DNA from: Salinibacter grassmerensis
GTDB lineage: Bacteria > Bacteroidota > Rhodothermia > Rhodothermales > Salinibacteraceae
NCBI RefSeq assembly: GCF_947077765.1
Contig: NZ_CAMTTF010000003.1
Coordinates: 186,001-250,000, forward strand
Length of the DNA stretch: 64,000 bases
Direction: 5' to 3'
The notes below the pieces were generated by a model. The model saw nothing but the letters and a program-made list of their open reading frames with translations, was not told the DNA's origin and made no database searches. The translations under genes and the position numbers were made by a program. Of this stretch, positions 25,925-26,682 are shown in pieces (the first letter of the stretch is position 1; every line of letters begins with the position of its first letter).

Positions 25925-26023
25925 TGCTGAGAACCCCACACGAGAGTCAAACATGGAGGCCAGGCGAAAGCCGTCCGCGGCGATGCGGAGCCAGGAGCGC
26001 GCTTCCTAGAAAGCAAAAGCCGG

Positions 26024-26303
26024 TACCGGGGGTGGGACTCGAACCCACACGGGCCACAAGGCCCAACGGATTTTCGTACCACTCCAATTTTCATTGGTGG
26101 GTGCGTGGTCTGGACTTTCTCTTCACCGTGTCCGGCCGGACGTAGGTGCTGCCCGTCAAGTCTCTGCACCTTCCCGCGGTCGGGCTTGGCTCAGGATTAC
26201 CAGTCGAAAGGCTTCCCTGACTTTGAGCAGGTCTACATGGGGCGTTTCCACCCCAGCACTCATTCAATAAGTCCGTTGCGTCTACCAATTCCGCCACCCC
26301 GGC
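26024..26303 (-). tRNA. tRNA-Leu(UAA), interrupted by a group I intron
   Basis: Reading the minus strand, the 5' exon (26269-26303, 35 nt) has acceptor GCCGGGG, a D arm GCGGAATTGGTAGACGC, and the left half of the anticodon arm ending ACGGACTT. The 3' exon (26024-26074, 51 nt) begins AAAATCCGT. Joined, they give stem ACGGA/TCCGT and loop CTTAAAA, so the anticodon is TAA. A long variable arm (GGGCC/GGCCC, loop TTGT) identifies a leucine or other class II tRNA. The T arm is GTGGG-TTCGAGT-CCCAC and the acceptor closes with CCCCGGT plus discriminator A. The 1:72 pair is G-U and CCA is not encoded. The mature length is 86 nt. Confidence 0.95.
26075..26268 (-). ncRNA. Group I intron (IC3-like) in the tRNA-Leu(UAA) anticodon
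   Basis: The 194-nt insert splits the anticodon after U34, the site used by cyanobacterial and plastid tRNA-Leu(UAA) introns. Its last base is G, as required for omegaG, and the upstream exon ends in U. An internal guide (GAGT, shortly after the 5' splice site) can pair with the exon ACTT, giving the required U-G wobble at the splice site. Core segments of this subgroup are present on the minus strand: AATCCTGAGCCAAGCC (26183-26198) and GGTGCAGAGACT (26159-26170); the GACTT there can form P7 with AAGTC (26113-26117). No open reading frame or homing endonuclease is encoded. It should self-splice to give functional tRNA-Leu. Confidence 0.9.
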
Positions 26304-26682
26304 GATTTGGAGCTTCTAGTATAAGCACTCGCCGGGATGTGGTTCGCCGACACCGGCACCTCCCACCTGCGGCTTCCGCCCAATGCATTCAGCCCCCCGG
26401 TTGTGAACCCGTCGGCCTCGATACGGCAGACGCTTCAGGATCCGCGTCCGGAGAAAACTCGAGTTCGGGGGTGGGCGTACTAACTTATTGAATCCAGTAC
26501 TCAGGAATTCTGCAACGCGCATTGGACAGGCGCTCTGCTGAACCCCGCTCCTTACGATACCGTCACGTTCCGTCGATCACAACGTTGCTCCAGATCAATT
26601 TGGCGCGTCGCCAATAGTGTGACTGTTATACTGACCAGTTTCTCTTAGCGGGTCTTCTGCCCCACCCTCACAGCCCGAGCCG
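26304..26682 (+). other. Intergenic region between tRNA-Leu and the export operon
   Basis: 379 bases with no convincing gene on either strand. It must hold the promoter of the minus-strand tRNA and that of the plus-strand export operon. At 26483-26493 the plus strand repeats in inverted sense the 11 bases spanning the tRNA exon-intron junction (ACTTATTGAAT), preceded by GGGGTGGGCG, which resembles the tRNA 5' end. The stretch just before the ABC gene is AT-richer than its surroundings and probably contains the promoter, but I cannot fix the boxes. Confidence 0.5.

Follow-up and report, generated by a model that had tools for sequence, protein, structure and literature searches.

A compact IC3-like group I intron in the only tRNA-Leu(UAA) gene found in Salinibacter grassmerensis

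Within a window of 64,000 nucleotides of the Salinibacter grassmerensis genome (contig NZ_CAMTTF010000003.1, positions 186,001 to 250,000), a tRNA-Leu(UAA) gene is interrupted by a real and tiny group I intron, of a kind already known, in a group of hosts for which it is not commonly cited. It is considered highly probable that this IC3-like intron, devoid of any open reading frame and lodged in the only tRNA-Leu(UAA) gene found, is spliced in vivo and is horizontally mobile. Besides adding to the hosts from which the best-known 'ancient' bacterial intron is recorded, the case provides, within a single genus, a natural presence/absence series for intron gain and loss.

With introns allowed, ARAGORN reads a tRNA-Leu(taa) with a 194-nt intron behind the first anticodon base (Table 1), and the original prediction, which had placed a 194-nt insert at 26075-26268, proved exact to the base, the strand being minus. 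Once joined, the exons give a complete and clean tRNA-Leu(UAA) fold with a long variable arm, printed as 88 nt and counting 86 nt to the discriminator base, since the 3' exon end by ARAGORN takes in two bases beyond the latter. Both the complete tRNA expected from the joined flanks and the insertion after U34 are thus borne out, and it is this combination of host gene and insertion site that places the insert in the tRNA-Leu(UAA) U34 intron family. Such genes can be missed by tRNA annotation, as ARAGORN called zero tRNAs in the window without the intron option. Of note, the 11 nt spanning the 5' splice site (26262-26272) are repeated exactly, in inverted orientation, at 26483-26493, 210 nt off and outside the gene, probably by chance.

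Table 1. Features of the interrupted tRNA-Leu(UAA) gene, in window positions
Feature	Position	Strand	Basis
Split tRNA-Leu(UAA) gene, whole	26022-26303	minus	ARAGORN, introns allowed
5' exon: acceptor, D arm, anticodon stem, up to U34	26269-26303	minus	ARAGORN -i
Group I intron, 194 nt, after U34, last base G (omega G)	26075-26268	minus	cmscan RF00028, ARAGORN, tailored model
3' exon from A35: anticodon stem, long variable arm, T arm, acceptor	26022-26074	minus	ARAGORN
P1, including the internal guide AUGAGU, which pairs with exon ACUU plus intron AU; U34 paired with G	26258-26272	minus	drawing; sequence
P2, 7 pairs, GAAA loop, covaries	26238-26255	minus	drawing; 88% of cells paired, shuffle 53%
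P3: 26225-26230 with 26149-26154, encloses P4, P5, P6, P6a	26149-26230	minus	cmscan, drawing, covariation
P4	26216-26220/26191-26195	minus	cmscan, drawing, covariation
P5	26210-26212/26199-26201	minus	cmscan, drawing
P6; P6a	26188-26190/26168-26170; 26181-26184/26173-26176	minus	cmscan, drawing, alignment
P7: 26159-26162 with 26113-26116; pseudoknot across P3	26113-26162	minus	drawing; invariant in 116 introns
P8 and P8a	26124-26148	minus	drawing, covariation
P9, 5 pairs, GAAA loop, covaries	26084-26097	minus	drawing, covariation

Regarding the nature of the insert, cmscan matched it to RF00028 on the minus strand from 26278 to 26082 over the full length of the model (1-253 of 253), with an E-value of 9.3e-13 and a score of 56.3 bits, that is just 6 bits above the gathering cut-off of 50, and the group I assignment initially made from the letters stands on this match. 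A tailored covariance model built from 18 Leu(UAA) intron cores, the window intron among them, scored the insert at 137.5 bits, a figure that is partly circular and comes with rough E-values. The insert is the only match to either model in the genome. The drawn fold contains the P3-P7 pseudoknot core, and an alignment of 116 Leu introns (introns above 300 nt, copies and L169 being omitted) was used to assess its helices. The paired fraction beat every shuffle for P2 (0.88 vs. 0.53 in shuffles), P3 (1.00 vs. 0.85), P4 (1.00 vs. 0.94), P6a (0.96 vs. 0.76), P8 (1.00 vs. 0.91), P8a (0.77 vs. 0.55) and P9 (0.94 vs. 0.84); for P5 and for the outer pairs drawn in P9, shuffles did just as well in these 116 introns. 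P6 and P7 show little or no variation and therefore bring no covariation evidence, nor does P1, which exceeds shuffles hardly or not at all and is nearly constant, partly because its exon side was set constant in the alignment. The core, recognisable blocks of which had originally been claimed, is conserved. The terminal G and the guide pairing with the exon end are confirmed in the sequence and the drawn fold, where the U ending the 5' exon faces a guide G and the final intron base is a G.

As to the subgroup, IC3 introns lack P7.1 and P7.2 and have a short P9, and docking of GAAA loops occurs in other introns of this subgroup. In the drawn structure, which served here in place of a subgroup model, P5 is one short hairpin, and extra helices would not fit into the 4 nt separating P7 from P3 or the roughly 15 nt separating P7 from P9. 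As the absence of a P5abc extension is described as a criterion for IC3 (PMC11835236), the window intron is, on the grounds of its sequence and drawn fold, a compact tRNA (IC3-like) group I intron. A length of 194 nt leaves no space for an endonuclease gene. The very small size pointed out at the start holds on comparison, the Salinibacter Leu introns (188-194 nt) being the shortest among 123 distinct Leu(UAA) introns parsed (127 with 4 second copies of counted loci), 103 of them from a scan whose pattern favoured short introns; a natural group I ribozyme this small is usable as a model.

In the proposed mechanism, exon ACUU of the precursor would pair with the intron guide to form P1, and a guanosine bound in P7, by analogy the guanosine-binding helix, would attack after U34. 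The freed 3'-OH of U34 would then attack after the terminal G of the intron, while the anticodon stem would hold the exons together until ligation, yielding a mature tRNA reading UUA. Guanosine-initiated self-splicing of the window intron is what its sequence would predict, and self-splicing has been described for an alphaproteobacterial tRNA intron (PMC7717549). In the S. grassmerensis genome searched (3.78 Mb, 99.7% complete), 43 RF00005 matches were obtained, among which the nine long ones, whose sequences were fetched, correspond to Tyr, four Ser and the Leu tRNAs UAG, CAA, GAG and CAG, the other 34 being presumably too short for a Leu tRNA. A pattern for the intronless UAA gene, with up to three mismatches, gave 0 matches in the genome. 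The intact copy of tRNA-Leu(UAA) that would have told against the original prediction was thus found neither among the long RF00005 matches nor by the pattern, and splicing is very probably needed in vivo.

Within the genus, the proposed search of related genomes recovered the same tRNA gene with the insert in 6 of 13 genomes and uninterrupted in another 6, two of which, G008 and G011, have a completeness of 83%; neither form was seen in G002, whose completeness is 62%. No uninterrupted UAA match was obtained in the six carriers with the pattern at up to three mismatches. On an rpoB tree of 16 genomes, from which G002 (no rpoB match) and G020 are absent, the carriers fall into one clade of G000/G003/G006/G010 and another of G007/G009, intronless species standing between the two; two changes are forced by starred branches and three are most parsimonious. 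The window intron is 93-94% identical to the introns of three close congeners, and its type shares 63% identity with the G007/G009 type, no more than with proteobacterial introns. In the carrier G006, the tRNA has a Na/Ca exchanger gene and a cytidine deaminase gene on its upstream side, and the same pair is found upstream, at varying distance, in the intronless G001, G004, G005 and G012 as well as in G013, G015 and G016 from three other genera, which indicates one and the same locus with the intron (G006) and without it. G000, G003 and G010 have different genes on the exchanger side and match G006 on the opposite side. The pair is absent within 6 kb in G007, G009, G008 and G014, and the G011 contig ends at the tRNA gene; the evidence for locus identity covers the G006 type and not the second carrier clade, G007/G009. 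Elsewhere in the family, G020 has a Leu(UAA) intron recovered by the tailored model and missed by RF00028, and G024 and G026, from the same genus as G020, have an uninterrupted gene. Presence and absence, read along the single-gene rpoB tree, suggest horizontal mobility of the intron on an evolutionary scale, the genus having seen two or more gains or losses. As the intron encodes no endonuclease, its probable modes of movement are transfer within whole interrupted tRNA genes or recombination.

Beyond the genus, a pattern scan of named genomes returned at least 119 stretches, numbers that are not prevalences as the pattern favours this tRNA gene and short introns. A first parser read 95 of them and a second 103 (nine gained, L105 lost), so that at least 103 of the at least 119 are tRNA-Leu(UAA) introns. 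By NCBI names, 65 belong to Alphaproteobacteria, 10 to Beta- and 2 to Gammaproteobacteria, 5 to other Pseudomonadota and 13 to Acidobacteriota, Pseudomonadota and Acidobacteriota together making up at least 95 of the at least 103; there are also 2 from Saprospiria, 1 each from Cyanobacteriota, Bdellovibrionota, Binatota and Clostridia, and 2 unranked, the Clostridia entry, on a very long branch of the intron tree, being perhaps misbinned. Across 395 genomes from the phylum to which the window belongs, RF00028 gave 30 matches, 24 of them above the cut-off, and 29 were obtained with the tailored model; for the cyanobacterial phylum, with 79 genomes, RF00028 gave 25, with 24 above the cut-off. 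Hosts of the group I introns found include tRNA-Leu(UAA), Arg(UCU), fMet and Lys genes and 23S rRNA, following our own reading of the exons where the ARAGORN label differs. In the published record, the Leu(UAA) intron is described as common to cyanobacteria and plastids, and tRNA group I introns as occurring in cyanobacteria and alpha- and beta-proteobacteria (PMC4033280); further literature bears on what is known and what is new (PMC3984707, PMC6125680, PMC5733544, PMC4476775). The idea that such an intron is unexpected outside cyanobacteria and plastids is thus not supported, considering the at least 95 introns of Pseudomonadota and Acidobacteriota, the 2 of Saprospiria and the mention of proteobacteria already made in PMC4033280. 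In the open-access (PMC) literature, most subscription papers lying outside this scope, no paper was recognisable from its listing as dealing with this intron in Salinibacter, and none paired group I intron, tRNA-Leu and Bacteroidetes.

Mobile replicons also carry introns of this kind. Plasmid records matching at 60-80% identity number 1269, 5 of them covering at least 80% of the query, and 4 phage records match, 2 of which, of equal length (735 kb), do so over the whole query at 71%. A complete intron-split tRNA-Leu(taa) gene is read by ARAGORN on a conjugative Bradyrhizobium plasmid and on the 735-kb uncultured phage record (L272), in the latter case with 17 further tRNA matches around it within 10 kb. 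Both halves are present on pCTX-M3 of Citrobacter freundii, labelled tRNA-Stop by ARAGORN and read here as Leu(UAA); on pUSDA76 the core of the intron is found together with the 3' part, and ARAGORN calls no tRNA there. All four fetched plasmid and phage records match the tailored model and none of the four reaches the Rfam cut-off; several relatives score under this cut-off, and the tailored model recovers those tested. The plasmids and the phage record are possible vehicles rather than demonstrated donors. On two plasmids, the Leu-type intron sequences lie close to defence-like genes, namely a PDC-S36 match (L273) and a TrlF-family ATPase (L275). There is close to an even chance, slightly on the lower side, that the U34 introns form a bacteria-wide family spreading horizontally, in the form of complete interrupted tRNA genes, on conjugative plasmids and giant phages, which entered the genus at least twice and made its sole UUA-reading tRNA ribozyme-dependent. 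If true, the U34 Leu intron would be a spreading bacterial family and not the cyanobacterial relic handed to plastids for which it has long been taken.

Could the gene instead be a tRNA pseudogene holding a decayed group I intron, with UUA read by some other tRNA? UUA is rare, making up 15 of the 1694 Leu codons counted over 48 long ORFs taken mechanically from the window, so that a weak supply would be tolerable; TTA is nevertheless in use in 11 of these 48 ORFs, the exons are clean, the intron is conserved in three other genomes of the genus and no alternative UAA gene was found, on account of which this highly improbable reading was rejected. With a gene that is probably functional and spliced as the preferred reading, the question is whence the intron came, and the original alternative of transfer or deep ancestry stands only in part, the patchiness within the genus arguing for recent gain and/or loss and the intron trees disagreeing on the source. 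These three trees, of 98 of 139 rows and then of 78 and 82 rows with alike alphaproteobacteria thinned, rest on about 200 columns and involve long branches.

That cyanobacteria (or a plastid) supplied the intron, at the homologous site, appears unlikely. Such an origin would agree with the same site and core blocks in cyanobacterial Leu introns, with an unstarred branch (79/82) of the 78-row tree, inside a starred set of 25 rows, that has the six genus introns and 13 cyanobacterial ones on one side, and with the starred joining of the G007/G009 type to cyanobacteria (100/98 with 78 rows, 99/99 with 82); a tree constrained to keep the four window-type introns together with cyanobacteria is not rejected either (p-AU 0.411 and 0.462 in the 78- and 82-row trees). 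However, all three trees have a starred clade of cyanobacterial introns from which the window type is absent. In the 98-row tree the window type comes out close to other Bacteroidota and to fMet introns, and the G007/G009 type close to an alphaproteobacterium, so that the cyanobacterial grouping depends on the rows included. By identity, moreover, the nearest non-genus intron to that of the window is alphaproteobacterial, at 72% among the matches listed. Somewhat better placed, if still doubtful, is a single old intron in the genus ancestor, passed on vertically and lost several times. Constraining the six genus introns to a single clade is not rejected (p-AU 0.158 and 0.377), and neither is the constraint with G020 added (0.363), this member of another genus of the family having a Leu(UAA) intron as well; against it, the two genus types are so dissimilar (63%) that they are no closer to each other than to proteobacterial introns, and intronless species stand between the two carrier clades. 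One gain with several losses in the genus is possible from these sequences, and a grouping of the six with four other Bacteroidota Leu introns is likewise not rejected (p-AU 0.167, 78-row tree).

Compared with known introns, those of cyanobacterial tRNA-Leu(UAA) share gene, U34 site, core blocks and terminal G with the window intron but are longer (212-312 nt for 13 parsed, plastid sequences not included, vs. 194), form a clade of their own and belong to another host phylum. The alphaproteobacterial and acidobacterial Leu(UAA) introns have the same U34 site, a compact architecture and up to 72% identity among the matches listed, and differ in host lineage and in length (at least 198 nt in the sample). 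The introns of Azoarcus tRNA-Ile(CAU) and Agrobacterium/Bartonella tRNA-Arg(CCU) are likewise compact bacterial tRNA group I introns, though in another tRNA and at another insertion position. The tRNA-Arg(UCU) introns of the same order are the same kind of element, partly in the same genomes; in the 98-row tree, those inserted behind position 36 make up a starred clade of their own, and those read as after U34 have a core unlike that of the window intron and, in some, an endonuclease gene.

This second group I intron, read as lying in tRNA-Arg(UCU) after U34 (ARAGORN labels vary), is patchy in the same genus, with loci L297, L306, L307, L310, L311 and L315, and L312 in the family. It is present in G001, G003, G005, G007, G010 and G012, plus G015 from another genus, where the tailored model recovered it, and G000, G004 and G006 match an uninterrupted gene; the RF00028 search of the family reported 0 of these 7 introns. 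Open reading frames for a PD-(D/E)XK endonuclease (PF11645), the product of which is likely a homing enzyme, occur in Arg(UCU) introns at L304:1093-1554 (E 1.6e-33) and L315:1556-2050 on the minus strand (E 4.3e-35), the latter in G007, hence in the window's own genus, and L302 and L303 have similar open frames. In G054, of the same order, a tRNA-Leu(UAA) intron (L294) apparently lies one base earlier, after U33, by our own reading, and group I introns in tRNA-Lys(UUU) were similarly read in the same order and phylum (L035-L037, which ARAGORN labels otherwise, and L215).
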